Part shown: positions 616 through 16,999 of the stretch, in pieces
Numbering within the stretch: position 1 is the stretch's first letter
How the letters are laid out: each line of letters opens with the position of its first letter
DNA from: a virus
Strand: one strand, 5' to 3'
Length of the DNA: 33,368 nt
Virus record (IMG/VR): IMGVR_UViG_3300027833_000137
Coordinates: 1-33,368 of that record
Program-made: the position numbers and the translations under genes
Notes under the pieces: generated by a model
Told to the model about the DNA's origin: nothing
Database searches by the model: none
Seen by the model: only the letters and a program-made list of their open reading frames with translations

Positions 616-622
616 TGCATGT

Positions 623-1072: not shown

Positions 1073-1131
1073 TTTAGTTCTCCTATTATAGCGAGTTTAA
1101 TGTAAGGAACCCATTATGGCATTCCTATATC

Positions 1132-1161
1132 TATATATAATACTTTTTATTTAAATGTCAA
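1132..1161 (-). promoter_or_regulatory. Sigma70-type promoter of hsp20
   Basis: TTGACA at 1161-1156 on the minus strand with AGCTATTGACATTT context; the -10 is TATATA at a spacing of 16 or 18 nt (the AT repeat makes the register ambiguous). It lies about 60 nt upstream of the hsp20 ATG and just inside the tail end of the preceding gene. Confidence 0.7.
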
Positions 1162-1175
1162 TAGCTAAATAACAT

Positions 1176-1493: not shown

Positions 1494-1502
1494 ATCATTG
1501 TC

Positions 1503-2012: not shown

Positions 2013-2014
2013 TA

Positions 2015-2419
2015 TCACTTCTTTCCAATATTATATTTTGCTTCTAGCGTCCAATTTGTTTTTTCTTTATGAGATATAATCTTAATCTGATTTAGTTGAG
2101 CAAAAGGCTCTTTACTACTATCAGGATTAACAATAGCAACTAATCCCCATTCTTCTAATAAGTTAACAATGGTATTTCTTCGAGCTTCATCTTCTTCTGC
2201 AAATGTATCTACTTTACCATCTAGGATAAATAATTCCTTAAAATGCAATATAGAATATCTACCTTGCTTATGTAAAATATGACATGTTTGATAAAGCTTT
2301 TTCTCTTTACGAGACGAAATACCAATTCGAGTTAAAGTTTCTTTTACTTTTAAGAAACTGTCTGGAGAAGGAAGAGTAACCTCGATTCCCACTCCTTTAA
2401 AAATATCTTCTGAGTTCAT
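2015..2419 (-). CDS. regA: RegA-like translational repressor
   Basis: Binds AU-rich sequences around the start codons of early mRNAs and blocks ribosome loading, controlling replication proteins including the clamp and loader. At 134 aa it matches T4 RegA (122 aa) along the whole length; the stretches FLKVKETLTRIGI, YQTCHILHKQG and HFKELF are very close to the T4 protein, and KTNWTLEAKYNIG matches its C-terminus. The true start is the ATG at 2419, preceded by AAAAAAGG; an in-frame GTG two codons earlier is less likely. The order 44, 62, regA is the T4 order, here with a zinc-finger ORF inserted between 44 and 62 and with dut downstream. Confidence 0.93.
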   Translation of the reverse strand: MNSEDIFKGVGIEVTLPSPDSFLKVKETLTRIGISSRKEKKLYQTCHILHKQGRYSILHFKELFILDGKVDTFAEEDEARRNTIVNLLEEWGLVAIVNPDSSKEPFAQLNQIKIISHKEKTNWTLEAKYNIGKK

Positions 2420-2453
2420 AACCACAGCACCTTTTTTAATTATTAATTATATG

Positions 2454-2467
2454 GTGTGGTCTCACAC
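2454..2467 (-). promoter_or_regulatory. Small hairpin in the gp62-regA gap
   Basis: GTGTG and CACAC flank a 4-nt loop in the 83-nt gap between the gp62 stop and the regA start, about 35 nt before the regA ATG. There is no T-run, so it is not a simple terminator; it is followed by AT-rich leader containing TATAATTAAT. It could affect regA translation or mRNA processing. Weak evidence. Confidence 0.3.
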
Positions 2468-2502
2468 GGTGACCATCAGTGATATTTATTATTTTAAGTA
2501 TC

Positions 2503-2907
2503 TTACCTTGTAACACCGCCCGTTTCTAACCTCGCTTTAATATTTTTCATATCATCAGAAGAAAGTGCTTTGAGATATAGTTTTGCTATTGTCCTGTTGC
2601 ATTGATATACTTCTTGTATCATATCAAGGTCGTCACTCTTTGCGGCCTTTGGCCATTTACTAAATCTTTTGCGTTTTCTAAAAGCTGCTCGGTAATAATC
2701 AAATTGAGCTTTATATGGTAAATGAGCACGCATATTCATTTCATTAGCATGTAGGATCGTATCTTCAAAGTTTACGAACCCTTTGTTAATAATGTATGGC
2801 ACATATAATTTTTCTGCCATATCTGGATTTTCATGGTTACCAATCAAGTCTTCCTTAGAGAAAGATGCGGCATTCATAAAATCAAAAGGTGTTATTTCTT
2901 TCGGCAA
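2503..2907 (-). CDS. 62: Clamp loader small subunit (gp62-like)
   Basis: Partner of gp44 in the 4:1 clamp loader that opens the gp45 ring and places it on primed DNA. Identification rests on position (between gp44 and regA) and on similarity to the middle of T4 gp62: HLPYKAQFDYYRAAFRKRKRF followed by SKWPKAA corresponds to the T4 segment with FNYLMAAVPRGKRYGKWAK. At 134 aa it is shorter than T4 gp62 (187 aa), as in other marine T4-like phages. The start appears to be TTG at 2907, because GGAGG lies about 6 nt upstream and no ATG is near; a weak start could help keep gp62 below gp44. Confidence 0.85.
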   Translation of the reverse strand: MPKEITPFDFMNAASFSKEDLIGNHENPDMAEKLYVPYIINKGFVNFEDTILHANEMNMRAHLPYKAQFDYYRAAFRKRKRFSKWPKAAKSDDLDMIQEVYQCNRTIAKLYLKALSSDDMKNIKARLETGGVTR

Positions 2908-3088
2908 TTGTTTCCTCCAAATCTTTTAACATATCATCAACGTCTTTAGCGCATTTTTGGCACATCTTTAAATTGAGTGGTCCATCAGCTGTATCAACGT
3001 CAACGCTATATATTTGTTTTTTATTCATCTTCGTTTGGCAATTCCAGCACGTGTGCATGCCTATGAGTTTGTCCATCCACCGACTCAT
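2882..3088 (-). CDS. Small zinc-ribbon protein, 68 aa
   Basis: Unknown function. Two CxxC pairs (CWNC at about residues 14-17 and CQKC at about 43-46), 25 residues apart, form a likely zinc ribbon, followed by a helical acidic tail. It is wedged between the two clamp-loader genes, sharing an ATGA junction with the gp44 stop and overlapping the start of gp62 by 26 nt, so all three are probably translated together. T4 has no equivalent here. A DNA-, RNA- or loader-binding accessory role is possible but unproven. Confidence 0.75.
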   Translation of the reverse strand: MSRWMDKLIGMHTCWNCQTKMNKKQIYSVDVDTADGPLNLKMCQKCAKDVDDMLKDLEETIAERNNTF

Positions 3089-4038
3089 TTGTATTCGGCT
3101 TCAATCATTACTTCTGTAAGGAAAGCAACCATATTGACTTCAAGGTCTGCAACAAAATTAGCCTTATACATATAGTCAGCCATTGTTACAATAAAACCTG
3201 GAAGAGAACGCATTTCAACTTTATCAGACGCCATATCATAGATCCGACGAAACATTTCATTCATATCCTGATCTGAGTTATTAGCAACCCATTTACGCAT
3301 ATTAGTAAAGTCTTTTGTTTTTAATAAACGAAACACTTCATCAAGCGACTCTTGCTTTAGATTAACAAAAATACCTTCATCAATTTTACCTGAGGCAGCG
3401 TATGATTGCAATTCAGTTAATACACGACGGAAATCTGGAAAGTGTTTTTGGATTACCTTGGCTACTACAGCCTTATCATAATCAACGTTTTCCATACCTA
3501 GAATTGTTTCAACTCTTTTCATAAACTGCATAGCTAGCTTAGGACGGTCACTGGTTTCAATACTAAAATCAACTTCAGACAATCGAGATCGTAGAGGTTG
3601 AATAATACGGTTTTTAAAGTTACATGTGAATATAAATCCACAGTTAGAGGAATATTCTTCAATAAAGTTACGTAAAGCTGGTTGAACGTTTGCAGCGTTT
3701 AGGTAATCGGCTTCATCAAAGATAACATATTTACGACCACCACTAAGGGATACGGCCGATGCATATGTTGAAATATCATAACGAAGAGTATCAATGTTAA
3801 CATTCAATGAACCATTCTTTACGATATAGTCACAACCCATTTCTTCAAGCATAGCTTTTGCGATGGTTGTTTTGCCTACGCCTGGACCACCAGACAATAA
3901 TAAGTTTGGTACACTATCATCGGTAACAAACTTTTTAAACATTGCTTTGGTTTTGGCTGGTAGGATAGTGTCGTCAATTCTCTGTGGTCTATACTTTTCA
4001 ACCCAGAGTACTTCGTTTGCTTTTGCATCAATAGACAT
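3085..4038 (-). CDS. 44: Clamp loader large subunit (gp44), AAA+ ATPase
   Basis: Motor subunit of the sliding clamp loader; ATP binding opens the gp45 ring and hydrolysis closes it on DNA. The 317-aa length matches T4 gp44 (319 aa). Visible motifs are the N-terminal WVEKYRPQ box, Walker A GGPGVGKTT (residues 50-58), Walker B VIFDEADYL, sensor 1 FTCNFKNRI and the SRL arginine-finger motif (usually SRC). The C-terminal helical collar domain follows. The gene follows gp45 and an 85-aa ORF, with a possible attenuating hairpin in the gap at 4058..4093. Confidence 0.97.
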   Translation of the reverse strand: MSIDAKANEVLWVEKYRPQRIDDTILPAKTKAMFKKFVTDDSVPNLLLSGGPGVGKTTIAKAMLEEMGCDYIVKNGSLNVNIDTLRYDISTYASAVSLSGGRKYVIFDEADYLNAANVQPALRNFIEEYSSNCGFIFTCNFKNRIIQPLRSRLSEVDFSIETSDRPKLAMQFMKRVETILGMENVDYDKAVVAKVIQKHFPDFRRVLTELQSYAASGKIDEGIFVNLKQESLDEVFRLLKTKDFTNMRKWVANNSDQDMNEMFRRIYDMASDKVEMRSLPGFIVTMADYMYKANFVADLEVNMVAFLTEVMIEAEYK

Positions 4039-4057
4039 ATAATCACCATTTCATAAT

Positions 4058-4093
4058 ATAAAAATAAAGTGCGGGTTTATAACGAGAGCCCGC
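4058..4093 (-). terminator. Possible attenuator or terminator between gp45 unit and gp44
   Basis: On the minus strand GCGGG and CCCGC form a GC-rich stem around a 13-nt loop, followed by ACTTTATTTTTATA. The U-run is interrupted, so termination may be partial. It sits between the stop of the 85-aa ORF and the gp44 ATG, where it could make clamp mRNA more abundant than loader mRNA. Confidence 0.45.
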
Positions 4094-4104
4094 GTCGTTT
4101 AGTA

Positions 4105-4362
4105 TTACTGAACCTTGTCAGCTAATGGTGCGTCTTCTGGTACATTTGCCGGTGCTTCCATTGGCATATTACCTTGAGGCTGTTCACCTTGTGGTGCATT
4201 TTGTTGTAGAAACATTTCAAATTTATTTCGTAACATTCCAATGCCTGCAAGCTCATTACCTGCAATGCCGCCACGCCGACTGACTACGTCAATCATTTGG
4301 ACTACGGTTGCAATGTCTTGCAACGATAGGTTAATTTGTTCTGGTTGTTCTTGTTCGCTCAT
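4105..4362 (-). CDS. Hypothetical protein, 85 aa, Gln/Pro-rich tail
   Basis: Unknown function. The N-terminal half (LSLQDIATVVQMIDVVSRRGG, then AGNELAGIGMLRNKFEMFL) looks helical and structured; the C-terminal third is rich in Q, P, E and A and probably disordered. The ATG at 4362 has AAGGAAATTGAAC upstream; an in-frame TTG two codons earlier is ignored. It lies directly after gp45 and before gp44. Similar short ORFs sit next to clamp genes in other marine T4-like phages as far as I recall. Confidence 0.7.
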   Translation of the reverse strand: MSEQEQPEQINLSLQDIATVVQMIDVVSRRGGIAGNELAGIGMLRNKFEMFLQQNAPQGEQPQGNMPMEAPANVPEDAPLADKVQ

Positions 4363-4364
4363 GT

Positions 4365-5030
4365 TCAATTTCCTTTATTATAAGTCGACTTAGTATCAAT
4401 CGCCACATAGTATGTAGCGTCGGATCCCTTAAACTCAGAGATACCCTTTGCGCAAAGAGTAACATGGTAATCCTGAGCTAAGAGTTTAAGATTATCTGTT
4501 TTGATGATAACCTTAAATTCATCTTGGGTTTGGCCAATCTCTACACCATAATCATCAGCACCTTGGTCGGCACTATCAATAGCTTTGAGATAAACTTTAC
4601 CCTCACTACCAACGAATGCAATTTCTTTGAATTGAAGTACGCCGGCAGCTTTAATTACTGATTGCATATCATCCCAAGACACGTCGACAACCACATCCTT
4701 GGTAGGAAGGTCAATCTCTTTTTCTGGTGCCGCGTGGATCATTGAAATGTCAGCAAACGCGTATTTCGTACGTTGTTTGCCTTCAGCAATCGTAAAGTAT
4801 TTATCGTGGAATTCTACATCAGGGTCTTTATATAGACCTAGAATTGATAGAAAACGTGATAGATCGTAGATACATGCCTGTGATGGAATGTTATCTGTAA
4901 TCGTGGCTTGTGCCACAAGTGTTTTTTCTGGTGTAATAGTCTTTAGGACATTGCCTTCCTTCATAAGGATAGACTTGTTGATGGTGGAAAAACTCTTTAG
5001 AATAGTAAGAGTGCGTTCAGAAAATTTCAT
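4365..5030 (-). CDS. 45: Sliding clamp, DNA polymerase processivity factor (gp45)
   Basis: Trimeric ring that tethers DNA polymerase to DNA and, in T4, also activates late transcription together with gp33 and gp55. The 221-aa product (T4: 228 aa) starts MKFSERTLTILKSFSTINKS, matching the family N-terminus (T4 MKLSKDTTALLKNFATINSG), and ends with a HVTLCAKGISEFKG segment like the T4 C-terminal repeat. The longer open frame was rejected because the ATG at 5030 has GGAG 10 nt upstream and the homology begins there. Promoter at 5066..5094. Confidence 0.96.
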   Translation of the reverse strand: MKFSERTLTILKSFSTINKSILMKEGNVLKTITPEKTLVAQATITDNIPSQACIYDLSRFLSILGLYKDPDVEFHDKYFTIAEGKQRTKYAFADISMIHAAPEKEIDLPTKDVVVDVSWDDMQSVIKAAGVLQFKEIAFVGSEGKVYLKAIDSADQGADDYGVEIGQTQDEFKVIIKTDNLKLLAQDYHVTLCAKGISEFKGSDATYYVAIDTKSTYNKGN

Positions 5031-5065
5031 TATGTAAGTGCTCCATTGGTTTTTGTATATTATTA

Positions 5066-5094
5066 ATTGTATCACTATTATTGCGATATGTCAA
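5066..5094 (-). promoter_or_regulatory. Sigma70-type promoter of gp45
   Basis: TTGACA (5094-5089), 17-nt spacer, TACAAT (5071-5066) on the minus strand, in a TAGTTGACAT context. The -35 box begins immediately after the stop codon of the upstream glycosyltransferase gene, and the gp45 ATG is about 36 nt beyond the -10. Confidence 0.85.
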
Positions 5095-5958
5095 CTACTT
5101 TTTACCTTTATTATATGATTTTTGATTTGAAGATTTATCTGCTGTTGCTGATAGACCTAGTGATCCAATTGCTCCCATATTACCTTTAAAGATATATGAG
5201 CCAATATGATTGATTTGCATCCAAGGACACATCCATACCTTCATTCCAGCCTGACGCGCTTTTTGACAGAAGAAGTAATCTTCACTCAAGTAGCGTTTAG
5301 TTTTTGGATCAATGATACAGTCAAAGTAAGCCATAATCTCGTTAGATCCGTCAAACTTTTCAGTTCTTGCATGATCTGGTTTATAACTATACTCTGGATA
5401 TGCTGCTTTGTATTTTTCAAATGTTTCCCGAGGAATACACATAAAGCCTGTACCACCTTCACCAATTTCTAATGGCTGTGATAGTTGAAAGCTTGACATT
5501 TTATCCACTGGATTAAAAACATAATCAGCAGTATATTGGTCTAATTGAAATGGGTTTTCTTTGGCTTTACCAAGTTCAGCTGCTCTAGCAACCTTTTCCC
5601 ATGCAATTGTTTTCTTAGGGTATGGACCTGTAACGATGTTGTATTTTTCTGGGTCGGATATTTGTACTGCAATTAAACCAAAAATATCTCTTGGATCAAA
5701 GGCAATATCTGAATCAATAAACACCAAGTGAGTACAATCAGATCTCATAAACTCATCAGCAACATAGTTACGCGCACGTTGAATTAAACTCTCGTTAAAC
5801 AAATAGTAAAACTTTACAGTAATACCATTGGCTGCGCACATCATAGCTAAATCGGTACATGATTTAGTAAACGATCCACTACAGTTTCCTCCATACATTG
5901 GCGTCCCAATAAAGATTTTATATTGTTTTAGTTCGTCAACGCTGATTTCTATTTTCAT
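5095..5958 (-). CDS. GT-A fold glycosyltransferase, 287 aa
   Basis: Predicted to transfer a sugar from a nucleotide donor; acceptor unknown. The N-terminal part has alternating beta strands and helices (KIFIGTPMYGGN, then FIDSDIAFDPRDIF), with the DSD metal-binding motif at residues 82-84 as in GT2-like GT-A enzymes. A second conserved area (GEGGTGFMCIPRETF, then YLSEDYFFCQKARQAG) matches the acceptor and ED catalytic region of this family. Such enzymes are common in marine T4-like phages. It ends the modification island and shares an ATGA junction with the dexA-like gene. It could act on DNA (hydroxymethylcytosine) or on cell surface or virion glycans. Confidence 0.8.
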   Translation of the reverse strand: MKIEISVDELKQYKIFIGTPMYGGNCSGSFTKSCTDLAMMCAANGITVKFYYLFNESLIQRARNYVADEFMRSDCTHLVFIDSDIAFDPRDIFGLIAVQISDPEKYNIVTGPYPKKTIAWEKVARAAELGKAKENPFQLDQYTADYVFNPVDKMSSFQLSQPLEIGEGGTGFMCIPRETFEKYKAAYPEYSYKPDHARTEKFDGSNEIMAYFDCIIDPKTKRYLSEDYFFCQKARQAGMKVWMCPWMQINHIGSYIFKGNMGAIGSLGLSATADKSSNQKSYNKGKK

Positions 5959-6590
5959 ATTTCAATTTGCTCCAAATCGTTTTCTGCGCGGGTAATGGCT
6001 TGAAGTCTTAGAACGTCTGCCGCCACGTCATGTTTACTATCATGTGCTTTAAAATTGTATTCCCATTTAGCAGTATCTGATACGGGAACAAATGCGTTTA
6101 GTTTAGGGAAATCAAACTTAGCATCAATAAATGTACGAGTATCACGTACAGACCAATACTTAAGGTAGTTACCCATAAGAGAAGTCTTGTTTGCGTATTG
6201 CGCCAATCTTTCTAGTATTACCGGATCAAAAGAGTTAGACCTTGACCACCATCGTTCAATTTTATCAGCTGAACGTAGATAATCAATTAACTTTTCCATA
6301 AATTGAGCAGGTGTAAGATCGTTTGCTGATGGTTTTAGATTAACTCTTAATTCAGGTGGTTGGTCAAGCCACCATTGTAAATCACGTTCGTTATATTTAC
6401 ATCCGTGATTAGTCATTTGGTCTTTAATATCAAACTTAGCTTGGTTCATGCCAAGTACCAACTCTTTAAAAGAATATGGATTTTCTGTAAACCTACTCCA
6501 ATCAAAGGTCGTGTACGAGCAATCAATTGCAGGTACCTCACGTGAGTTTTGACCAATGGTTTCAAAGTCAATAATAAAGTGTGTGCTCAT
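5955..6590 (-). CDS. dexA: DexA-like 3'-5' exonuclease (DEDD family)
   Basis: Predicted 3'-5' exonuclease of the DnaQ-like fold. The N-terminal FIIDFETIG carries the D-x-E of motif I; RNAse-T-like motif II (SNSFDPVILERL) and motif III (HDSKHDVAADVLRL) follow in order. The stretches FDIKDQ, LQWWLDQPPELRVNLKP and the YWSVRDTRTFIDA region align well with T4 DexA (227 aa). T4 DexA degrades DNA and removes non-templated ends; it is not essential. The gene overlaps both neighbours by 1-4 nt and has an intragenic promoter 57 nt upstream, inside the C5-methyltransferase-like gene. Confidence 0.88.
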   Translation of the reverse strand: MSTHFIIDFETIGQNSREVPAIDCSYTTFDWSRFTENPYSFKELVLGMNQAKFDIKDQMTNHGCKYNERDLQWWLDQPPELRVNLKPSANDLTPAQFMEKLIDYLRSADKIERWWSRSNSFDPVILERLAQYANKTSLMGNYLKYWSVRDTRTFIDAKFDFPKLNAFVPVSDTAKWEYNFKAHDSKHDVAADVLRLQAITRAENDLEQIEI

Positions 6591-7792
6591 TATATAAATG
6601 CCTCAAGCGTATCTGCTTTTGTAAGGTAATCTGCCTTTTGGCTATGATTATACTGTACAACGTAGTCTGTGTCAACCATAGTTAGTTCACCATTTAAATA
6701 TTTTTTAACCTCACCCGCCATGTCAGCAGCAGTTTGAACAGGTACATTTTGACATATATGATTAGCATTCTTAGTAGGATTAAGTAGCTCAAAGTCTCCT
6801 GGCAATCCCATAATAGTCATAGCTTCTCTATATGTAATAAACCGATCCTCGTCTGGGTGAGTAAGCTTGGTTGGATAATGTCCAACAAAAGCACCAATAT
6901 AATCTTTTGGAATAGTTACGCCACGCTTCATAATGTTACCGCCAGATTTTAGCTTTTCATATTTACGCATAGCTGAGGCTGCAGCTCTTTCGTGGCCTTT
7001 TTCTGTCATCCATTCAGAAACTTGTTTATATGTATATCCTTTTTTCTCAATATGAGTAAATACACATTGGCCAGATTTAGCAACATCAGGACTAAGTTCT
7101 TCTGAATATTCTTTATGGGTCTTGCCACCTGCGTCGTGTTCAAGTAAGAATTGATACCATGGATCTTCAGATGGTTTATTTGAATTGATTGTTTCCATTT
7201 GGAAGTTTGACTTTACGTCACGTATTACTTTTTCAATAGGATCGCCGCGTTTACTGAAATAATTAAGAAGAGGTGTTTGTTTATTTTGCCAGAAGAAATA
7301 GAACGAACGTTCACGTACTTGTGGTCCACCATGTAATAGAGACCTTGTTCTATATACAGACATTGTATATCCGTTATCTTGTCCAATTTTTCTTAATTGT
7401 TCTCTAACATTTTTACCAATTTTTCCAGCAAATCCTGGAGCATTCTCACCCCAGAATACTTTTGGCTTATATTCACCAAGAACATATTCTGCAGTCTTTC
7501 CCATCCATTGATTATTTGGATTGTGGTCACCATAACCATGTGACATCATAGATAAACCAGCACAAGGACAAACAGACGATACCACATCAGCTCGTTCATT
7601 TGCTGGTGGTTTTTGGTCTTTATCTAAAACATAATAAGGTATTTCATTATTATAATAGTTTAAAATATGACTATCATTTGAAGCGAATGGTTCATATGAC
7701 ATAAAATGTAATGGTGGAACGCCAAACGCTTGCTGAGATCCAATAGTTTCACCACCAATTAATGGAACGATGGATGCATGTGTATAAGTCAT
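6590..7792 (-). CDS. C5-cytosine DNA methyltransferase-like protein
   Basis: By family, transfers a methyl group from S-adenosylmethionine to carbon 5 of cytosine. Conserved motifs in order: a divergent SAM-binding motif I (PLIGGETIG, residues 10-18, instead of FAGIGG), motif II-like SYEPF, the catalytic PC in SVCPCAGLS (Cys77), motif VI as ENA (116-118, usually ENV), motif VIII QVRER (158-162), a target-recognition-like middle region, motif IX-like TYREAMTIMGLP and motif X NHICQNVPVQTAADM. The active-site residues are intact. It lies in the same operon as a dCMP hydroxymethylase, which should already occupy C5, so its substrate or role is puzzling (see findings). Overlaps both neighbours by 3-4 nt. 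Confidence 0.88.
   Translation of the reverse strand: MTYTHASIVPLIGGETIGSQQAFGVPPLHFMSYEPFASNDSHILNYYNNEIPYYVLDKDQKPPANERADVVSSVCPCAGLSMMSHGYGDHNPNNQWMGKTAEYVLGEYKPKVFWGENAPGFAGKIGKNVREQLRKIGQDNGYTMSVYRTRSLLHGGPQVRERSFYFFWQNKQTPLLNYFSKRGDPIEKVIRDVKSNFQMETINSNKPSEDPWYQFLLEHDAGGKTHKEYSEELSPDVAKSGQCVFTHIEKKGYTYKQVSEWMTEKGHERAAASAMRKYEKLKSGGNIMKRGVTIPKDYIGAFVGHYPTKLTHPDEDRFITYREAMTIMGLPGDFELLNPTKNANHICQNVPVQTAADMAGEVKKYLNGELTMVDTDYVVQYNHSQKADYLTKADTLEAFI
6647..6675 (-). promoter_or_regulatory. Intragenic consensus promoter before dexA
   Basis: TTGACA (6675-6670), 17-nt spacer, TATAAT (6652-6647) on the minus strand, inside the last 30 codons of the C5-methyltransferase-like gene. It points at the dexA-like gene whose ATG is 57 nt beyond the -10. 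A perfect 12/12 match at ideal spacing is unlikely by chance. Confidence 0.75.
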
Positions 7793-8235
7793 TTATTTTT
7801 CTCCTTAGCATTTTGTACTACACGATTCCTTAAATCTGTAGATGAAAATGAGTGTTTACGTTTATTATAATGAATAGGACATAACCCAATACCCGTATGA
7901 TCTGTGCCTTCATATTCTTCACCAACAATTCTAATATCTGGTTGAATGGTTAAAATCATGTCAACGATTTCTTGTTCTGTGCTGAATGGTATAACTTCGT
8001 CTACATATCTGCATCCAGATAATTGGATATACCTTTCAAACGTGCTTTGGACCGGCTTGTTTTTTCCATCAGGTCTATCCACTGTAGGATCTATTAATAA
8101 ACCAACAATTAAGTAATCACATAATGATTTGGCTTCTTGTAACATTACGACATGGCCAGCATGAAATAAGTCAAAAGCTGAACAAGTAAATCCAACTTTT
8201 GCTTCTTGTGGTAATTTAGTTTTATCTAGGAACAT
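7789..8235 (-). CDS. Cytidylyltransferase-like nucleotidyltransferase
   Basis: Predicted to couple a phosphorylated alcohol or sugar to a nucleotide (CTP or ATP), releasing pyrophosphate; closest in look to glycerol-3-phosphate cytidylyltransferase (TagD) and the RfaE C-terminal domain. The whole 148-aa chain is one Rossmann-like domain with the HAGH signature (residues 25-28, in FDLFHAGH) and the C-terminal FSSTDLR (130-136), which corresponds to the ISSTxxR nucleotide-binding motif. Upstream lie a glycosyltransferase and a phosphatase-kinase fusion; together they could make and use an activated sugar or polyol. Substrate cannot be read from sequence. Overlaps both neighbouring genes. Confidence 0.88.
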   Translation of the reverse strand: MFLDKTKLPQEAKVGFTCSAFDLFHAGHVVMLQEAKSLCDYLIVGLLIDPTVDRPDGKNKPVQSTFERYIQLSGCRYVDEVIPFSTEQEIVDMILTIQPDIRIVGEEYEGTDHTGIGLCPIHYNKRKHSFSSTDLRNRVVQNAKEKNK

Positions 8236-9139
8236 TCACTTCTCCATTAATTATTCTGTCAATTTGTTTTGCGTATATTTCATATAACGGTGTTTTATCC
8301 GTTGGAAGGTAATGTATATATTTTGGTAATTTTTTTACTCTAGAAATATCAAAAGGTTTTAAAAGAGTTTCTTTAACTTTTACTTCTGGACCAAATTTGG
8401 CCACATCATAACCATTCTCAGATAACCATTTGTAATAGATAGAATATATGTTTTGTTCTAAAACCCAAAACTTACCACCTATACTTCTTTTGTTATTACT
8501 ATTTATGAAGCCAGTCTTAGCTTTATATTTTTCTACTGCAAAAATTAATAGATTATATACATCCGGGTGGAAAGCTTTATTTAAAAAAGTCATTAACATA
8601 TCATTGTCTTTATGAATAAGCTGTCCTGAGTTTAAACAGAACACTGGCTTTTCTCTCATTTTAGTAATATCAACATATTCGCTATATAATGGTTTTAGTG
8701 CCTTTTCTACACCTTTTGACATAACTCCTAATACTGTCTCGTTATGATAAACATAATCTTTTTTAAAGTATTCATCTATTGGTTGAAGCAAAAATACGTC
8801 GTCGTCCATCATCATTGCTTTTTCAATGTTTAATATTTTATGTACATAAGGAAACACAAGCCATTTAATAGCAACTCCATATATGTCTAGTATTTTATCA
8901 ACCATATCTGGATTATCAAAATTATTAAGTAATGGTTTTACCTTTTCTAACATATCTTTTGTATAGTGAATATTAAAGGTATCACGTATTTCACTTACGT
9001 CAAAATCTTGTTTCCTATTATCTATTATGACATTTAGTCTTGTGTTTGTATCGCAATTAAATATATTATAGTATTTTTTGAATTGTACTAATCTCTCTAT
9101 TTTATCACTTATTACAAAAATCTCATTGTTTGTTGACAT
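8222..9139 (-). CDS. Putative GT-A glycosyltransferase, 305 aa
   Basis: Predicted glycosyltransferase. The clearest motif is DDDVFLLQP at residues 112-120, a GT8/GT-A-like DxD metal site after a hydrophobic strand (KAMMMDDDVFL), preceded by an FPYVHKIL helix and followed by an FCLNSGQLIHKDND segment that resembles the acceptor side of such enzymes. No family member is named with confidence. It starts 17 nt inside the end of the HAD-kinase fusion and overlaps the cytidylyltransferase by 14 nt, so it most likely uses the donor those enzymes make. An alternative is transfer to a surface glycan. Confidence 0.65.
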   Translation of the reverse strand: MSTNNEIFVISDKIERLVQFKKYYNIFNCDTNTRLNVIIDNRKQDFDVSEIRDTFNIHYTKDMLEKVKPLLNNFDNPDMVDKILDIYGVAIKWLVFPYVHKILNIEKAMMMDDDVFLLQPIDEYFKKDYVYHNETVLGVMSKGVEKALKPLYSEYVDITKMREKPVFCLNSGQLIHKDNDMLMTFLNKAFHPDVYNLLIFAVEKYKAKTGFINSNNKRSIGGKFWVLEQNIYSIYYKWLSENGYDVAKFGPEVKVKETLLKPFDISRVKKLPKYIHYLPTDKTPLYEIYAKQIDRIINGEVNVPR

Positions 9140-10145
9140 TGTCTATACACTCCATAATAAACTCTTTGTTAGGGTGGTATTTATAGACACGAGTCACCTC
9201 TGCTGATACCAATAACACCAACATATCTTTGTTTATATCATTTGCAAGAGCCAAATAATCTAATGATTGTTTAAACAATTTAATAGGGTATTCATTAATA
9301 AGTAAGCTTGCACAAAACTTTGCGGCATCCAATTCAGTACATCCAAATACTCCACAAATTGGATCAATTAAATGCATATCACAATTATTAAATAACATGT
9401 TTTTAATACCAAAATCACCGTGAGAATAACTACGTGATAATTCGTATTTTGTTAATTCTGAAGCTATTTCAATTAGCTTTGTTTGACCAGAATTATTAGC
9501 ATGTTCTTTAATGCGATCAATATAATCAATAAACTTTAAATCGTCTTGCGGTGATGCTGTTTTCATTTTATCTAACTGTGTTTGAACAGTAGCTAAAGCC
9601 ATCCAAAAGTTATTTGAGAAAAAGTCTTCGTCATGCTCAATATAATCCATAGTAATTGTTTCACCAACAACTCTATGAATAATAGGTGTTTGAATACCGA
9701 TACGTTCAGCGTTAGCAAACCATTTGCGTGTTTGATGCGCATTTTCATCTTGCTTATGTACTACTTTACCATCAGTATAAATTTCACCACCAGATAATCC
9801 ACCTTCGAGTTCGCGAATATCAACTTCGAGAAAGTCTTCAGGCATAATACCTTTATCGTCAATATAATAGGCCGCCAATGGTTTATCAAACGAGAGCATA
9901 TTAAATCTTACATTATGTTTATTAAGCCAACCAAGCATGCTTTCTTCGTATTTTTTACGGGCATCGTTTCGAGTTTTACACGATATAGAACCACGCGCAG
10001 TAAATATATCAATAATCCAATCCTCGGCATGCAACTTATTCAGCTTTTCAATAAGAGGTTTGTTTGGTAAAGCTTCATCAAATTTACGGTTTTGATGGAA
10101 CGCTAAAGTGTCGTCAAAATCGACTACGATACGTTTATGGTACAT
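9123..10145 (-). CDS. HAD phosphatase / APH-like kinase fusion
   Basis: Two-domain protein. Residues 1 to about 110 form a small HAD-type phosphatase: DFDDTL (9-14) with the nucleophile and acid aspartates, FTARG (48-52) and the IDDKG loop (95-99), like phosphatases of capsule gene clusters. Residues about 115-340 look like an aminoglycoside/choline-kinase-fold phosphotransferase: a glycine-rich GGLSGGEIYTDG loop followed by a VVHK lysine, catalytic HGDFGIKN (242-249) and metal-binding LIDP (259-262). Similar domains serve sugar-phosphate metabolism in polysaccharide clusters. With the cytidylyltransferase next door it may prepare a sugar or polyol phosphate. The start overlaps the Agt-like stop (TAATG). 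Confidence 0.82.
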   Translation of the reverse strand: MYHKRIVVDFDDTLAFHQNRKFDEALPNKPLIEKLNKLHAEDWIIDIFTARGSISCKTRNDARKKYEESMLGWLNKHNVRFNMLSFDKPLAAYYIDDKGIMPEDFLEVDIRELEGGLSGGEIYTDGKVVHKQDENAHQTRKWFANAERIGIQTPIIHRVVGETITMDYIEHDEDFFSNNFWMALATVQTQLDKMKTASPQDDLKFIDYIDRIKEHANNSGQTKLIEIASELTKYELSRSYSHGDFGIKNMLFNNCDMHLIDPICGVFGCTELDAAKFCASLLINEYPIKLFKQSLDYLALANDINKDMLVLLVSAEVTRVYKYHPNKEFIMECIDNVNKQ

Positions 10146-11584
10146 TAGAAAAATTCCTCAAGGGTGGCGCCTGTTTCTTCTGGTTCTTTGATTTCGTTTT
10201 GTTTGCCATCTACTAATGTATACGGTTTTTCATTTAAAACACTTCCTGGCGTTGATATAATAATCTCACCAGCTTCACGTCTTTGTCGTGCACTTGGAAA
10301 ATAGCTTGAAATCCTGTCTATAAAATCTACTTTATCATGTCTTTTGCCTTTTGTCAATACAAAATTTAAAAACTTAGGACCAAGCACTTCAATATCATTA
10401 AAGTTGTAAACTAATTCTTGGCAAGCCTTTGTACGCGCTTCCCATTCTTCTTTGTTATTATAAATTCTATTTAATTCTGCTGATAACTCTTCTTCGCATC
10501 CTGCTTTGGATACAAGTGGTCCATAATATTCACCCCACTTTTTACCTTCAGGAGATACTGCATTTTCAGCAAAGTCCTTACTAATAATAGGAAGAGATAG
10601 AAGAAATGATTCGATTACAGTATATTCCATACGATTGCCATACTCTTTTGGCTCACGTAGACGATATCCACACCATGCTGCCGTAGAACTACCAAGCTGA
10701 TTCATTCCAAAATCATATTTGTATTGATCGTATGCTACGATGGTTGTACCAGTTTTTAGTTTTTCTGCGGGTGGCAAGTAATGCTCACCTTTAGAATTTT
10801 GAAAAATGAACAAAATCTTTGGTTTATATGTTATATGATAAGGGTATGGATCAGTCGCAAGTGTTTTAGACTCTGGGCTTCCAACAGATTGTATTGAACG
10901 TTCACAACCCATCAAAGTTAAATCCCAATCATTCTTCATATATGGTTCAATACGACAAATCATTGCTGGATCTTTTAAGGTAGACATGCGACCCATGTAC
11001 ATAAGGTGTTTCTTGCGGTCTTCAAATGATACACGGTGCTTATCGTATTCTTTTGTGTGAACCCATATTGGATTTTCTACTAAACGACCTTTAAGGCCTG
11101 GATCAGCGTGCAAATAACAATCATTAGCATAACCTTCAAATGATTGTGTAACACCAATGTCTGCTAAAGAAAATAACTCAACAGCCTGTGTTTGTCTATT
11201 GATAGTATTCTTTGTAATAGCGTGGTCATGTATTACAATGATTGGATCACTGATGTTTTCAACAAATTCACGGAAACGATCTATGTATTTTCCATTTTTA
11301 CGAGTTGGGTATGAATGTATGATTGCAATATCACAAGTATTTACTTCATCAATTACTGGTTGAGCGTCTTTAATTTCATGCTCTTTTTCAACTCGATGAA
11401 TCGTACTTTTCCAGTCAGTATTTTTTGCACGATTAAATTTCTGCTTATTATCAAAATCAATTAATATTGTTTCGTGCCCTTGGGATACTAACCACTCTTC
11501 AAAAATGTTTGCACCTTTAGTAACACCACATCCTTCAATTCCTTTACCGAATATGAAAGCTATTTTCAATTTTTCTTTTATCAT
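10145..11584 (-). CDS. agt: Alpha-glucosyltransferase-like (Agt) DNA glycosyltransferase
   Basis: Predicted to glycosylate 5-hydroxymethylcytosine in phage DNA, shielding it from restriction. The N-terminus KIAFIFGKGIEGCGVTK (residues 7-23) is nearly the same as in T4 Agt (RICIFMARGLEGCGVTK), and further similarity is visible in EVNTCDIAIIHSYPT and IIVIHDHAI (T4 has DCDILIINSVPAT and VVVYQHDHSV). Later RMSTLKDPA and the YTVIESFLLSLPII region are the donor-binding half of a GT-B enzyme. It is 479 aa, longer than T4 Agt (400 aa), with about 80 extra C-terminal residues. The sugar need not be glucose. It overlaps the methyltransferase-like gene by 41 nt and the fusion gene by 1 nt. Confidence 0.87.
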   Translation of the reverse strand: MIKEKLKIAFIFGKGIEGCGVTKGANIFEEWLVSQGHETILIDFDNKQKFNRAKNTDWKSTIHRVEKEHEIKDAQPVIDEVNTCDIAIIHSYPTRKNGKYIDRFREFVENISDPIIVIHDHAITKNTINRQTQAVELFSLADIGVTQSFEGYANDCYLHADPGLKGRLVENPIWVHTKEYDKHRVSFEDRKKHLMYMGRMSTLKDPAMICRIEPYMKNDWDLTLMGCERSIQSVGSPESKTLATDPYPYHITYKPKILFIFQNSKGEHYLPPAEKLKTGTTIVAYDQYKYDFGMNQLGSSTAAWCGYRLREPKEYGNRMEYTVIESFLLSLPIISKDFAENAVSPEGKKWGEYYGPLVSKAGCEEELSAELNRIYNNKEEWEARTKACQELVYNFNDIEVLGPKFLNFVLTKGKRHDKVDFIDRISSYFPSARQRREAGEIIISTPGSVLNEKPYTLVDGKQNEIKEPEETGATLEEFF

Positions 11585-12215
11585 AATTTAATCTCCATTC
11601 ACTATATTCATCATCTAACATCGCCCACTGGCAACGGGTGTATTTATGTTTTGCTGTCTTGTCCCATATGATCCACATATAAGCAATCATACCACCAATT
11701 TGTTCTGTTTTGTCGACAGGTTCCAATATTTTAGAATCAAATTTAACTCTGTCTGATAGATATATTATATCACTAGGTGGGTTGTTTGTAAACAGTTTAT
11801 TTCGCTTTTTACCTTCTAAAAAAGTTAAACGCAAAAACATTGCAGTGTAATCGTATTCCTCTGTCCATTTTTCTGCCAGTTTATGTGGCAAATTTTTATG
11901 GTATGGAGGATTGGTAATTACACCTTTAACGTCTTTATCTTTTGGTAACTCTAATGCGTCATATGGCGTATTTATGTCAACTAGACTATCCGGATATACA
12001 TTAAGGTCGTAGGATATAACATCGTGACCATTTCTTAATAGCTCTGATGAAATATGCCCACGACCAGCGCATGGCTCTATAACTTTATGTGGTACATTAC
12101 CGTATTTACAGAGAATGTATGTTGCTAAGGGAGGGGTAGGATAAAAATCATTCGCCGTTCTATTAGGGTCGTTCTTTTTAACACCAACATATATGTCTGT
12201 TAAGTTATTCGCCAC
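11544..12215 (-). CDS. N6-adenine methyltransferase-like protein
   Basis: Predicted SAM-dependent DNA methyltransferase, about 223 aa. It shows the DFYPTPP segment common in phage adenine methylases, motif I IEPCAGRGHIS, an acidic loop (SYDLNVYPD) and the catalytic NPPY. There is no clear separate target-recognition domain, so it could be a small solitary methylase or modify another substrate. There is no ATG near the start; GTG at 12215 has GGTGA upstream and is preferred, but TTG at 12233 is possible. The gene begins inside the dCMP deaminase end and finishes 41 nt inside the Agt-like gene, an unusually long overlap. Confidence 0.82.
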   Translation of the reverse strand: MANNLTDIYVGVKKNDPNRTANDFYPTPPLATYILCKYGNVPHKVIEPCAGRGHISSELLRNGHDVISYDLNVYPDSLVDINTPYDALELPKDKDVKGVITNPPYHKNLPHKLAEKWTEEYDYTAMFLRLTFLEGKKRNKLFTNNPPSDIIYLSDRVKFDSKILEPVDKTEQIGGMIAYMWIIWDKTAKHKYTRCQWAMLDDEYSEWRLNYDKRKIENSFHIR

Positions 12216-12765
12216 TTGAGGGATCACCAACAATAGAGACTATAACGCCAGCTTCCTTAAACATTGGAGCTGATTGAGTATCCCATAGGTCAACCCATGT
12301 TTGTGGAGTCATTGGTGTATTTGGTTTAATTACAACTCGACGAATACCTGCTTGAATAATAAGCTTTGTACACTCAGGACAAACTGGTAAACCATAAACA
12401 TAAATTGTAGCATCTTTAACAGATACACCAGAATAAAGCGCATTCATTAATGCATTCGTCTCAGCGTGTACAATTAAAGGATATTTTAATTCTCGGTTAT
12501 TAAGACGTTCTTCAGTATCATCAATACCTTTAGGAAAACCATTATAGCCAGTAGCTAGGATACGTCGTTCATCATTAACAACAATGGCACCAATTTGACT
12601 TGACGGATCTTTGCTCCAGCATGCCATAAGGGAAGCCATTGTCATAAATCGCTTATCCCATTTTAGTTGTTTAGCATCTTCTTCTCTCATACGTCTTCCC
12701 ATAAAATTGTGATATGACTCTTGTTTCCTATCAGTTGCATCATCCGGATGCACCCAAATACTCAT
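12205..12765 (-). CDS. cd: dCMP deaminase
   Basis: Converts dCMP to dUMP, supplying precursor for dTMP. The 186-aa product (T4 Cd: 193 aa) has the zinc site of the cytidine-deaminase fold: HAE (His100, catalytic Glu102) and PVCPEC (Cys129, Cys132), plus SSQIGAIVVND and the ATGYNGFPKG substrate loop typical of dCMP deaminases. It overlaps the hydroxymethylase stop by TAATG, so the two enzymes competing for dCMP are made from the same mRNA. Confidence 0.95.
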   Translation of the reverse strand: MSIWVHPDDATDRKQESYHNFMGRRMREEDAKQLKWDKRFMTMASLMACWSKDPSSQIGAIVVNDERRILATGYNGFPKGIDDTEERLNNRELKYPLIVHAETNALMNALYSGVSVKDATIYVYGLPVCPECTKLIIQAGIRRVVIKPNTPMTPQTWVDLWDTQSAPMFKEAGVIVSIVGDPSSGE

Positions 12766-13442
12766 TACAACTTGACCAAATCAAAGTGGCGGCTATACAC
12801 GTGCAAGTTCATTACTTGCCATGTAAGGTTACCTTTAACGATTGATTGTTCAGTTTCAAAGTTATAATCTTCAACAAATCTATCCATAAGATATTGTGCC
12901 CAAGCGTAATCATTCTTATAACCAAATACAACATCATTAGAACGCATCTGCGATACCATGTGTAGTTTACCATCACGAATATAAACAGTTTGTGCATTAG
13001 TACAAATGAAGTCTGACTTACCATTCTCGTTGTATTCAACCCAGATAGATGGACGGTTATAAACCATTTGAGCGCGACGGCTGTCTGGATTTTCAATCAA
13101 TTCAAATAGTGCACTATCATATTGTTGGAAATACTTAGGAGAAAATACAAGGTGACCATAGTTTGAATTGATTTCACCGTTTTCATTAGAAGCATATTGC
13201 CACGCAGCAGGTGGATCTTTTTCAAGACCATGAATATCCATAATATTAGTAGAACCGCTTTCATACCAAGCTAGCTCTGCATCAATATAAGATTTAACTG
13301 GTGTACCAAAGATAGCAGGTTCATCAGCAATAAATGATGCACCTAACATTTCAATAGTTTTTGCACCAGTTTTATCAGTAGTAAATCGTTCAGCTTTTAG
13401 TTCTTCAATAAAGTACTCGCGAATATCCCATACATTATTCAT
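12765..13442 (-). CDS. 42: dCMP hydroxymethylase (gp42)
   Basis: Uses methylene-tetrahydrofolate to turn dCMP into 5-hydroxymethyl-dCMP, the precursor for hydroxymethylcytosine DNA. The 225-aa protein is of the thymidylate-synthase fold and closely follows T4 gp42 (246 aa): KTGAKTIEMLGASFIADEP, GEINSNYG, ENPDSRRAQMVYNRPS and MRSNDVVFGYKNDYAW. The catalytic cysteine is in ICTN (Cys147), and Asp178 in KNDYAW is the residue that selects dCMP over the dUMP of true thymidylate synthases, which have Asn. The C-terminus ends shortly after HVYSRHFDLV. The ATG at 13442 has AAGGAGA upstream; a longer open frame overlaps the preceding gene. Confidence 0.95.
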   Translation of the reverse strand: MNNVWDIREYFIEELKAERFTTDKTGAKTIEMLGASFIADEPAIFGTPVKSYIDAELAWYESGSTNIMDIHGLEKDPPAAWQYASNENGEINSNYGHLVFSPKYFQQYDSALFELIENPDSRRAQMVYNRPSIWVEYNENGKSDFICTNAQTVYIRDGKLHMVSQMRSNDVVFGYKNDYAWAQYLMDRFVEDYNFETEQSIVKGNLTWQVMNLHVYSRHFDLVKL

Positions 13443-13758
13443 CGTCTTCTCCTTTAAATCTATCATCAGTATCAATTGGATCAGATTGCATTTCACACAT
13501 AACCATAATAATCATTTGAGTCAATGCGTGATGTGTGTGAGGTAAACCACTTTCAGGATCTAGGTCTTCGCCTGAATGGAATGCCAATAGGTGTCTCATA
13601 ATAGAAGCATAGTGACGTGAATATGGAAACTTATCGAGGTCCATGCGCCAATTGTTTTCGCCATATTTTTGAGCACCAAATCCAAAAACCTGAGCAGCCG
13701 CGATGATTGCTTCAGGTGGAACTAAATTAATAGGTGGTTTGTCATTATCAAATTTCAT
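13435..13758 (-). CDS. dATP/dGTP diphosphohydrolase-like (DUF5664) protein
   Basis: 107 aa. The sequence pattern KPPINLVPPEAI, FGAQKYGENNWR and PESGLPHTHHALTQMIIMV is typical of the phage DUF5664 family, annotated as dATP/dGTP diphosphohydrolase N-terminal domain and related to all-alpha NTP pyrophosphohydrolases. The substrate is not certain. It overlaps the start of the dCMP hydroxymethylase by 8 nt. T4 needs the dCTPase gp56 to make dCMP for gp42 and to keep dCTP out of DNA; I see no gp56 here, so this gene or the MazG-like gene at 17268 may fill that role. That is inference. Confidence 0.75.
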   Translation of the reverse strand: MKFDNDKPPINLVPPEAIIAAAQVFGFGAQKYGENNWRMDLDKFPYSRHYASIMRHLLAFHSGEDLDPESGLPHTHHALTQMIIMVMCEMQSDPIDTDDRFKGEDDE

Positions 13759-13770
13759 ATACTCATTTCC

Positions 13771-14394
13771 TTAAACATTGTTATTATATATTGTGCGATC
13801 ATCGCCACGTGTATTATAGAAATACTTTATACGTCGTACACCATCATGGTCGGTTGTCCAGTTATTAGAAAACTTTTCTTGGCATGGTCGTAGGTTTTGA
13901 CGTATAGTATCAAAAGGTACAACAGCACGCCAACGAACGTCAAAAGTATTATGTGTTAGTTTATTATAACATCCAAAGATGATAATGTCAACACATTTTG
14001 GGTACAATCTTCGATTTCTTACTAATTTATTTGCCATATAGTTTGGTATGGTTAACCATTTCTTTTCCATCGATGTTGGTAATTTTCCAGGATCTTGTGT
14101 GTTTTTAACCTCAGCTCTCCAATTACTCCAATCAACATCCCAATTATGAGTTTCAGGTTTAGTGTAATCAAATTCAGCAGGGTTCATAGTAGCACCTTGG
14201 CGAGCCAAAGCAAACTCTAATATAACGCCTGCATATGTATGTGCTAGAACAGTTAAATGACTTCTTCCACGTCGACGGTGTGGACACTCAAACATTTCTC
14301 TTGCCATAGTTTTAATGTGAAACTCCTCACCCTCGGTTAATTCGAGGATAAGGGGTTCTGGGAGTTTTAGCGGTGTTTGTAAAGAGTCAGACAT
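13771..14394 (-). CDS. Hypothetical protein, possible PD-(D/E)XK nuclease
   Basis: 207 aa, unrecognised. An arrangement compatible with a PD-(D/E)XK nuclease core is visible: Glu60 in YAGVILEFALA, Asp86/Asp88 in NWDVDW and the E-V-K of RAEVKNT (95-97), followed by a strand (VDIIIFGCYN). A basic CPHRRRGRSHLT segment near residue 38 could bind nucleic acid. This is pattern reading only. It precedes the gp42 operon, and its coding sequence contains the consensus promoter at 13963..13991 that probably drives that operon. It overlaps the 79-aa gene by 8 nt. Confidence 0.7.
   Translation of the reverse strand: MSDSLQTPLKLPEPLILELTEGEEFHIKTMAREMFECPHRRRGRSHLTVLAHTYAGVILEFALARQGATMNPAEFDYTKPETHNWDVDWSNWRAEVKNTQDPGKLPTSMEKKWLTIPNYMANKLVRNRRLYPKCVDIIIFGCYNKLTHNTFDVRWRAVVPFDTIRQNLRPCQEKFSNNWTTDHDGVRRIKYFYNTRGDDRTIYNNNV
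13963..13991 (-). promoter_or_regulatory. Intragenic consensus promoter before the gp42 operon
   Basis: TTGACA (13991-13986), 17-nt spacer, TATAAT (13968-13963) on the minus strand, inside the 207-aa gene. It points at the DUF5664 gene (ATG 13758), gp42, dCMP deaminase and the modification genes beyond. Full match to consensus in both boxes and spacing. Confidence 0.75.
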
Positions 14395-16039: not shown

Positions 16040-16999
16040 TTAAAAACCGTTTGGTACTAATACATAATGAATAAGTAATACGATACCAAGTGAGGCACCT
16101 AATCCAATCATCATCTTAAAGAAGTCTCTACCAATTAATGGAAACACTGTTTTAAACTTTTGTTTACCAGTAAAGGAAGCAATAGCTAATTCGCGTCCAC
16201 ATAACAAACCAACAAATACCCATGTAGTACTCATAGGAATATCGTTAAGTTCTTTAAAGAAGTATAGAATAACGAAGTAAACTAAATCAATAATTGTAGC
16301 ACTTCTAACGTAACGAGTGTTATGTTTTTCTAATACGATTTGTTGGATTTTACCTCCACCACTTTTTAACATAATACCAAGTCCACCAACGAATACAACA
16401 CTAATCATAATCATTAGTGATACGTCAAGTTGTCTTGGTAAAAATACAGCGATGTTAGCCATATCATGTGACAACCAAGTCCACCACAAAAATCCAGTAG
16501 TAACCCACTGAGCTACTCGCCACATAACTTTGTGATTATCTTTAACAGGTTTTGCTTCATCTAAAAGCCGGCTTACGACTATCCAAATTACATACGCTGC
16601 TACTGCAGCCACTGCATAACCCATCATTGATTTCATTAACATTTTTTCTAATACGAATGTACTAGCAAATGCTGATAAGACTAAGAATGAAGTTGATACT
16701 GGAACACCGACTCGTGTCAATGCTAATAGTACTGCCGGTGCCAAAGCGTGGTACCATTGTACTTCTTGGAATGGTATTTTGTTTAGTCGTCCATAACTAA
16801 TATCTCCGCTATAGGTATACCATCCATACCAAATAGCAAATAGCAGTACGGAACTTGCCGCTGCCCACATTGTTGTCCAATGAAATTTCTCGTTGTTTGA
16901 TGCAATCCAAGTACCGAGAGTTTGTACTGAATCGTTTGCGATAACCGCATAGGCAGCGAATATAAATCCTACTACCATCCATAGAGTGAGTTGGTCCAT
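16040..16999 (-). CDS. PiT-family inorganic phosphate transporter (PHO4)
   Basis: Predicted cation-coupled phosphate permease of the host inner membrane. The 319-aa protein has about nine hydrophobic segments and the internal inverted repeat of the family: AVIANDSVQTLGT (residues about 18-30) is the GANDxxNxxGT signature and VGVPVSTSF the PVSTT loop in the first half; WLSHDMANIAVFLP and DIPMSTTWVFVG are the second-half counterparts. It is shorter than bacterial PitA (about 500 aa), lacking most of the central loop. As an auxiliary metabolic gene it could raise phosphate uptake for DNA synthesis. It stands alone with a TATAAATA late box at 17088..17095 and a strong AAAGGAGA ribosome-binding site. 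Confidence 0.88.
   Translation of the reverse strand: MDQLTLWMVVGFIFAAYAVIANDSVQTLGTWIASNNEKFHWTTMWAAASSVLLFAIWYGWYTYSGDISYGRLNKIPFQEVQWYHALAPAVLLALTRVGVPVSTSFLVLSAFASTFVLEKMLMKSMMGYAVAAVAAYVIWIVVSRLLDEAKPVKDNHKVMWRVAQWVTTGFLWWTWLSHDMANIAVFLPRQLDVSLMIMISVVFVGGLGIMLKSGGGKIQQIVLEKHNTRYVRSATIIDLVYFVILYFFKELNDIPMSTTWVFVGLLCGRELAIASFTGKQKFKTVFPLIGRDFFKMMIGLGASLGIVLLIHYVLVPNGF

Follow-up and report, generated by a model that had tools for sequence, protein, structure and literature searches.

We describe here an island of overlapping genes on the minus strand (positions 5095-13758) of a 33,368-base virus record, IMGVR_UViG_3300027833_000137, which at its full length is referred to as the window. 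Our analysis indicates that this T4-like virus of bacteria probably carries a conserved cassette for cytosine hypermodification, in which 5-hydroxymethylcytosine (hmC) would receive a phage-activated and probably non-glucose sugar. The cassette carries a gp42-type dCMP hydroxymethylase, a homologue of the T4 DNA glucosyltransferase AGT, a fusion of a HAD phosphatase and a kinase (HADkin), a nucleotidyltransferase (CT), and a C5-cytosine DNA methyltransferase (C5-MTase). On sequence grounds, the island most likely combines hmC synthesis and AGT of the T4 type with a sugar-activation pair that is RB69-like but differently built. What is new would thus probably be the combination, a variation on the known trick of hiding phage DNA from bacterial defences by means of a modified, sugared base.

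An earlier note, made from the sequence alone, had read this stretch as a DNA-modification island built on hmC. A modification island is supported, and HADkin and CT do travel with gp42 and the DNA transferase, in parallel to the arabinose-activation cluster of RB69-type phages. The overlapping minus-strand genes it described are likewise present, as all six are open reading frames (ORFs) located as proposed, and neighbouring island genes overlap pairwise throughout 5095-13496 by 1 to 41 bases. In order of transcription, the island encodes a dGTP-diphosphohydrolase-like protein, gp42, a dCMP deaminase, an N6-adenine methyltransferase-like protein, the AGT-like enzyme, HADkin, the putative glycosyltransferase GTA1, CT, the C5-MTase, an exonuclease, and the putative GT-A-like protein GTA2; the C5-MTase, exonuclease, N6-methyltransferase-like gene, and deaminase had been missed.

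The probable modified base and its DNA transferase

The gene for the gp42-type dCMP hydroxymethylase occupies 12765..13442 (minus strand), with an ORF open to 13496 and a likely start at 13442. It matches Pfam Thymidylat_synt (2.6e-14), and the Cys147 and Asp178 of the earlier note, numbered from a Met at position 19, correspond to Cys165 and Asp196 in the longest ORF. As both residues align with T4 gp42, that assignment is borne out. An Asp instead of the Asn of thymidylate synthase (TS) is the mark of a dCMP hydroxymethylase, and it occupies this position in 12/12 phage sequences aligned with T4 gp42, a subset of the 67 loci that gave a match. The window protein carries the hydroxymethylase-type motif MRSNDVVFGYKND, and the T4-type form MRS(N/C)D...G before the Asp is found in the window and in all nine relatives compared, whereas the homologues from RB69, Acj61, and IME08 (3/3) have at the same place MRSQNCA-VMQLD, a motif absent from the window.

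In PMC13390438, the product of RB69-type enzymes is given as 5-hydroxy-dCMP, with the sugar joined directly at C5; the same paper calls the earlier arabinosyl-hmC reading of RB69 (PMC6024577) an error. We follow its account of arabinosyl-hydroxycytosine chemistry, for which it cites Lee 2025, Mahler 2025, and He 2026. The statement of the earlier note that RB69 places arabinose instead of glucose on hmC therefore stands for the sugar and not for the base, now reported to be 5-hydroxycytosine (PMC13390438). We infer that the motif separates hydroxymethylase from 5-hydroxy-dCMP-synthase chemistry. Because the window enzyme keeps the T4-type motif, it would side with T4, and hmC is the expected base. 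A gp1-type dNMP kinase (PF21448, DNMK) was detected in two of seven related viral records, just over cut-off, and a T4 gp1 query gave 0/8 in related records, the window itself being a fragment.

The AGT-like DNA glycosyltransferase (10145..11584, minus strand) is a GT-B homologue of T4 AGT, as the earlier note had recognized: it scores 34.3 bits against Pfam AGT (cut-off 25), and a profile alignment of its family with T4 AGT, from a query that contained no T4 sequence, reaches 98.5% probability (hhalign, 2.6e-15, 308 columns). Contact residues of T4 AGT are reported to include Gly15, His114, His116, His140, Arg204, and Glu311 (PMC6024577). Across 51 AGT sequences, many of them near-copies, the equivalents of Gly15, Arg204, and Glu311 are kept in 51/51 and those of His114 and His116 in 50/51 each, while His140 is replaced by Gln in 50/51 (Q147 in the window). 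A distant member, L155 (L-numbers are our labels for relative loci), is the exception for both His114 and His140, and a different sequence is the exception for His116. Lys209 and Glu306 (51/51) and Asp115 (50/51), which we take to be functional positions of T4 AGT, are likewise kept. The phosphate and ribose contacts and two of the three glucose contacts are thus present, the third being H140. This pattern is consistent with a DNA glycosyltransferase whose sugar site has changed, and it is still compatible with UDP-glucose as the donor.

The putative sugar-activating genes

HADkin was modelled by AF2 with a pLDDT of 86.4 and a pTM of 0.70, the weakest part being the domain joint at residues 114-121. 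The model bears out the phosphatase/kinase fusion proposed earlier, for which structure prediction had been suggested as a check, with a HAD-fold N-terminal part (9804..10145, minus strand) and a C-terminal part (9123..9803, minus strand) of the APH/choline-kinase fold. In the HAD domain, D9, D11, T13, K88, D96, and D97 are invariant (28/28), as are HGD....N and D261 in the kinase domain (28/28). The kinase domain resembles small-molecule kinases (3dxq, VIA-align Z 16.8, rmsd 3.4, 239 residues aligned); many APH-type kinases tie within 1 Z of one another, and the list is headed by a member of the choline/ethanolamine kinase family.

Among solved structures, the HAD domain matches 1xpj (5.1e-21) and 9iqw (1.2e-18) by hmmsearch, and both were also found by Foldseek. 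The PDB title of 9iqw describes the D-arabinose 1,5-diphosphate phosphatase AfhF of phage HY126, elsewhere labelled a capsule biosynthesis protein; a partial literature search gave no relevant paper on AfhF or HY126, and the function is taken from this title. Compared by eye, the 9iqw stretch is the same as RB69 ORF051c, with which the HAD domain aligns at 99.3% probability (hhalign, 5e-20). These sequence matches make the HAD domain a relative of AfhF.

The nucleotidyltransferase CT (7789..8235, minus strand) is a HIGH-type enzyme of the HldE-C/TagD/ECT superfamily and matches Pfam CTP_transf_like over cut-off (2.9e-14). Among NCBIfam models, rfaE_dom_II, the heptose-1-phosphate adenylyltransferase domain of HldE, ranks first (2.8e-23), ahead of glycerol-3-phosphate cytidylyltransferase (2.4e-14), both below their curated cut-offs. 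With 82.4 bits against a cut-off of 181.5, the rfaE_dom_II score places CT in the HldE superfamily and falls short of the equivalog level. Of the cytidylyltransferase named in the earlier note, the family therefore stands, and the nucleotide could be CTP or ATP given the match to an adenylyltransferase domain.

Given the kinship of the HAD domain with AfhF, kinase, phosphatase, and CT together form a plausible route from a sugar phosphate to a nucleoside diphosphate (NDP)-sugar. In the simplest chain, the kinase would convert a sugar-phosphate to a bisphosphate, the HAD domain would leave a sugar-1-phosphate, and CT would form the NDP-sugar. The activated sugar or polyol that the earlier note had expected to be phage-made is plausible on this route, with a sugar favoured over a polyol as the HldE domain is the best NCBIfam match. 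Arabinose is the leading guess, favoured by the link to AfhF; it is not compelled, because the SIS-type arabinose-5-phosphate isomerase was found in none of seven related viral records or the Agathobaculum phage record described below, a search in which RB69 was positive and in which the records may be fragments.

Two known systems may serve as a reference. The RB69 cluster comprises ORF051c (HAD), 053c (noted as similar to mannose-1-phosphate guanyltransferase), 052c, 055c (arabinose-5-phosphate isomerase), and 048c (TS-like), and a homologue of 053c/052c is assigned a phosphotransferase domain in PMC12838424. The island shares with RB69 and HY126 (Mosigvirus) a HAD phosphatase homologous to AfhF/ORF051c, an APH-type kinase, and a TS-like gene in the cluster. 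It differs in its hydroxymethylase-type TS, its AGT-like transferase, and its HIGH-type nucleotidyltransferase, and no SIS isomerase was seen in the related records. The fusion is also different, as the island joins the HAD domain to the kinase, whereas RB69-type phages pair the nucleotidyltransferase with the kinase (ORF053c/052c; one ORF in Acj61 and IME08). Heptose activation (GmhB/HldE) is likewise a chain of kinase, HAD phosphatase, and nucleotidyltransferase, and the island has the same kind of chain with an HldE-C-like nucleotidyltransferase. The heptose kinase is PfkB-type and that of the island APH-type, and the target here would be DNA and not lipopolysaccharide (LPS).

Conservation and exchange of cassette genes

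From the 140 loci of a HADkin profile search, the best 80 were used, together with loci from a search with the AGT-like protein. Without re-fetched copies, these amount to 81 distinct HADkin contigs, which fall into 29 clusters when grouped at 95% nucleotide identity; contigs too short for a given count were left out of it, so that core counts use those with enough flank. DNA near-identical to 5000-13800 was not found among the phage records searched. A gp42 gene lies upstream of HADkin in 40/41 contigs (17/18 clusters; the exception is L047), CT follows HADkin in 70/70 contigs (26/26 clusters), and the C5-MTase is downstream in 49/50 (20/21 clusters; the exception is L041). The latter gene (6590..7792 in the window, minus strand; Pfam DNA_methylase, 1.4e-17) is thus part of the conserved core and nearly as constant as CT, with its catalytic motifs kept (PC in 43/44, EN and QxRxR in 44/44). 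The search with the AGT-like protein returned 10 viral loci, none of which carries GTA1 and all of which preserve, at least in part, gp42, AGT, HADkin, CT, and C5-MTase in the same order. A collection that started from AGT comprised 58 loci, many of them the same contigs, and HADkin is present in all 46 that extend more than 400 bases downstream.

The transferases are mutually exclusive. An AGT-like gene is present in 41 contigs and GT2 in 38, none has both, and the two with neither are cut by contig ends; by cluster, 16 of the 29 carry AGT and 12 GT2, again never together. GT2 is GT-B-like, with matches to Pfam Glyco_trans_1_2 and GT10 below cut-off and nothing usable from a PDB profile search, and its position varies: in the group of L059 it precedes HADkin, and in that of L048 it follows CT. 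On the HADkin tree, the AGT/GT2 label requires two changes, of which the starred branches force only one, and there may have been a single switch. In L004-L009, identity to the window is 74-84% for AGT, HADkin, and CT, compared with 60% for gp42, about 50% for the C5-MTase where complete, and 44% for DNA polymerase. As the block exceeds the other genes in identity, AGT-HADkin-CT seems to have moved between phages as one unit.

The association extends to two distant gut phages, Agathobaculum phage AB434P2 and the faecal record MT837767, in which HADkin (with 33% and 28% identity to that of the window, respectively), CT (52% and 54%), a GT2-like gene (split over two ORFs in MT837767), and a TS with Asp at the dCMP-hydroxymethylase position occur together. 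Both differ from the window in a dNMP-kinase-like (thymidylate-kinase-like) gene just before the block, and the stretches fetched gave no match to C5-MTase or AGT. In four CT-only phage loci viewed of 131 matching records (L014-L017), the fetched stretch held no match to gp42 or HADkin. A scan of bacterial contigs gave at least three HADkin loci, one on a contig of a Rhodobacteraceae bin that has the complete core, one next to terminase genes on a gut contig, and one that matches in the HAD part only; among the matches listed they give no clue to the substrate. A partial literature search found no paper on this cassette, which does not show it to be unpublished.

Further genes accompany the cassette in some relatives. 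A sulfotransferase-like gene, recognized by eye, adjoins HADkin in L084 (2105-2863; no Pfam match) and in L085, L087, L091, and L092, and its product could decorate the sugar. In L033 (5489-6286; Pfam just over cut-off), L034, and L035, a class-I fructose-bisphosphate aldolase-like gene lies between gp42 and AGT.

A second transferase slot is more variable. GTA1 (8222..9139, minus strand) matched no sequence family, a protein search against phages found none, and a PDB profile search gave nothing usable. Its model (pLDDT 73, moderate) matches WbbM, glycogenin, LARGE1, and LgtC (6u4b Z 14.4, glycogenin about 13), which suggests with moderate confidence a GT8-like GT-A protein; the GT-A enzyme of the earlier note thus finds agreement in the suggested structure prediction and none in sequence families. 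The gene has a GC content of 0.275, against 0.335-0.383 in other island genes, and is optional (18/81 relatives, 17 of them with GT2, one, L077, at a cut contig end, and none with AGT), so that the window is the only case of AGT with GTA1 among these. The window and L020, the nearest row on the HADkin tree, are 92-93% identical on both flanks; the match breaks at 8268-9136, where L020 encodes a TET-associated glycosyltransferase (TAGT; PF20691, over cut-off). TAGT occupies this slot in L018-L021 (4/81), where the window has the GT8-like protein. It is conceivable that GTA1, or TAGT in sister phages, adds a second sugar. Such a step, which the earlier note took to be new, would not be new in kind, because TAGT is thought to add a second glucose in T6-like phages (PMC13390438).

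GTA2 (5095..5958, minus strand) belongs to PHROG 1574 (2.6e-60, function unknown). Its other matches are weak (Glyco_transf_21 at 0.0015, below cut-off; a single glycosyltransferase in a PDB profile search, E 0.92), and the GT-A assignment proposed for it is not established. It is a neighbour outside the core, present in 34/81 relatives. Of the one or two glycosyltransferases envisaged earlier, the AGT-like enzyme holds; the gene at 8222 is optional, the closest relative having TAGT in its place, and that at 5095 lies outside the core.

The remaining island genes, all on the minus strand, are the dATP/dGTP diphosphohydrolase-like gene (13435..13758; Pfam PF18909, 1.5e-27), a neighbour in the nucleotide-pool block; the dCMP deaminase (12205..12765; Pfam dCMP_cyt_deam_1, 2.6e-22); the N6-adenine methyltransferase-like gene (11544..12233; PHROG 799 DNA methyltransferase, 1.3e-38), optional and found in 2/81 relatives; and the Rv2179c-like exonuclease (5955..6590; Pfam PF16473, 4.4e-13), a neighbour outside the core. 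Elsewhere in the window are T4-type replication genes, namely a sliding clamp (4365-5075; Pfam gp45) and, from reading of the ORFs, DNA polymerase (17930-20473). A multi-pass membrane protein of 319 amino acids (16040-16999; no Pfam match) looks phosphate-transporter-like by eye, and two adjacent ORFs at 30379-31178 are SprT/metallopeptidase-like, the first supported by Pfam and the second by eye.

Proposed pathway, alternatives, and significance

When these observations are combined, gp42 would produce 5-hydroxymethyl-dCMP, as inferred at family level, which would then be polymerised into DNA. The kinase domain of HADkin may phosphorylate C1 of a host sugar phosphate, for example a pentose-5-phosphate such as D-arabinose-5-phosphate as the leading guess, the HAD domain could strip the terminal phosphate to give a sugar-1-phosphate, and CT might couple this to CTP or ATP. 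The resulting NDP-sugar would be delivered to the AGT-like enzyme (GT2 in other relatives) for transfer onto hmC in DNA, and GTA1 or TAGT may append a second sugar. More tentatively, and with somewhat less than an even chance of being right in full, the product could be specified as hmC with a phage-made non-glucose sugar (e.g., arabinosyl-hmC formed via arabinose-1,5-bisphosphate), to which some members add a second, swappable sugar or a sulfate, with the C5-MTase in the pathway and a modular donor cassette serving interchangeable DNA transferases.

Several observations weigh against a phage-activated sugar on hmC. The C5-MTase makes little sense, and has no evident role, if all cytosine is hmC; cytosine might be replaced only in part, the target sites may lie on host DNA, or the enzyme may catalyse an unusual reaction. 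In this context, a scan of 20 window ORFs with Pfam gave no Tet_JBP match that would indicate a TET/JBP dioxygenase. A dCTPase was not seen either, with a T4 gp56 query giving 0/8 records (no control) and PF08761 giving 0/7 related viral records (T4 control only partially positive), the records in both cases being possible fragments. The kinase domain aligns weakly with RB69 ORF052c (24% probability and p 8e-4, against p 0.027 for the best unrelated control), and the negative isomerase search noted above bears on the sugar. The donor pair can also occur without a visible hydroxymethylase: the gut contig L096 has HADkin and CT beside terminase genes and, by eye, a family-2-like transferase, with no TS in the fetched stretch, and L155 has both with an AGT-like gene only 26% identical, HADkin lying upstream, and no TS match in its 29-kb record. 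By eye, L155 also carries glycosyltransferase-, nucleotidase-, and FkbM methyltransferase-like genes at 1-6422. Finally, GT2 as a homologue of T4 beta-GT was not supported (profile alignment 1.5% probability, p 0.033).

The closest known system is the glucosyl-hmC of T4 (Tequatrovirus), which shares with the island the gp42-type hydroxymethylase and an AGT with most donor contacts. It could be speculated that the AGT-like enzyme uses host UDP-glucose as in T4, with HADkin and CT making a donor for GTA1, GTA2, or a cell-surface polymer. The two retained glucose-contact histidines would suit UDP-glucose and are part of a wider set of kept equivalents (H114, D115, H116, R204, K209, E306, E311), and GT8-type transferases of pelagimyophages are read as LPS-modifying (PMC7029224). 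T4 draws on host UDP-glucose without phage donor genes, whereas HADkin, present at 46/46 AGT loci with room, and CT beside it argue otherwise for the island, as do the change of H140 to Gln in 50/51 and the much patchier occurrence of GTA1 (18), TAGT (4), and GTA2 (34) among the 81 relatives, some of whose contigs end early; the C5-MTase and, in other lineages, GT2 in place of AGT are further differences from T4. We consider this explanation unlikely. That CT is a CTP:alcohol-phosphate enzyme and HADkin an ethanolamine, choline, or polyol kinase, the GT-B enzyme placing a phosphodiester-linked alcohol on hmC from a CDP-alcohol much as TagF uses CDP-glycerol, is quite unlikely. It would suit the PDB ranking of CT, which reverses that of NCBIfam with ethanolamine-phosphate cytidylyltransferase (3elb, 1.4e-20) ahead of glycerol-3-phosphate cytidylyltransferase (4.8e-16) and the LPS-core enzyme 3glv (8.7e-9), as well as the kinase family heading the VIA list and a weak Pfam Choline_kinase match in L012. 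Against it stand the NCBIfam order, the tie among APH-fold matches, and the kinship of the HAD domain with a sugar-bisphosphate phosphatase; moreover, a HAD step is not known to have a role in a Kennedy-type route.

Very unlikely, in our view, is a chance placement beside gp42 of sugar genes that act on host LPS or virion proteins. CT homologues do occur in surface-sugar-like neighbourhoods, such as that of S-H68 with dTDP-glucose genes, the HAD domain has a sub-threshold match to the EcbF-BcbF capsule phosphatase model, and L096 has HADkin and CT beside terminase genes without a visible TS. Yet the linkage with gp42 and either the T4-AGT homologue or GT2 is conserved over 29 clusters, and HADkin and CT adjoin a TS with the hydroxymethylase-type Asp in the two distant gut phages. 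Least likely of all is an RB69-type arabinosyl-5-hydroxycytosine, with a TS-like enzyme making 5-hydroxy-dCMP and the sugar linked directly to C5: the window and RB69 do have HAD, kinase-type, and TS-like genes in common, while the TS motif separates the window and its nine relatives from RB69, Acj61, and IME08, and the transferase is AGT-like.

If hmC does carry a phage-activated sugar here, T4-type hmC chemistry and RB69-type phage-made sugar donors would be separable, recombining modules in phages encountered repeatedly, across many metagenomic viral contigs. HADkin and CT beside gp42 would then provide a sequence signature for candidate non-glucose cytosine glycosylation, ahead of mass spectrometry, and the conserved C5-MTase raises the concrete question of how such an enzyme acts on hmC DNA.

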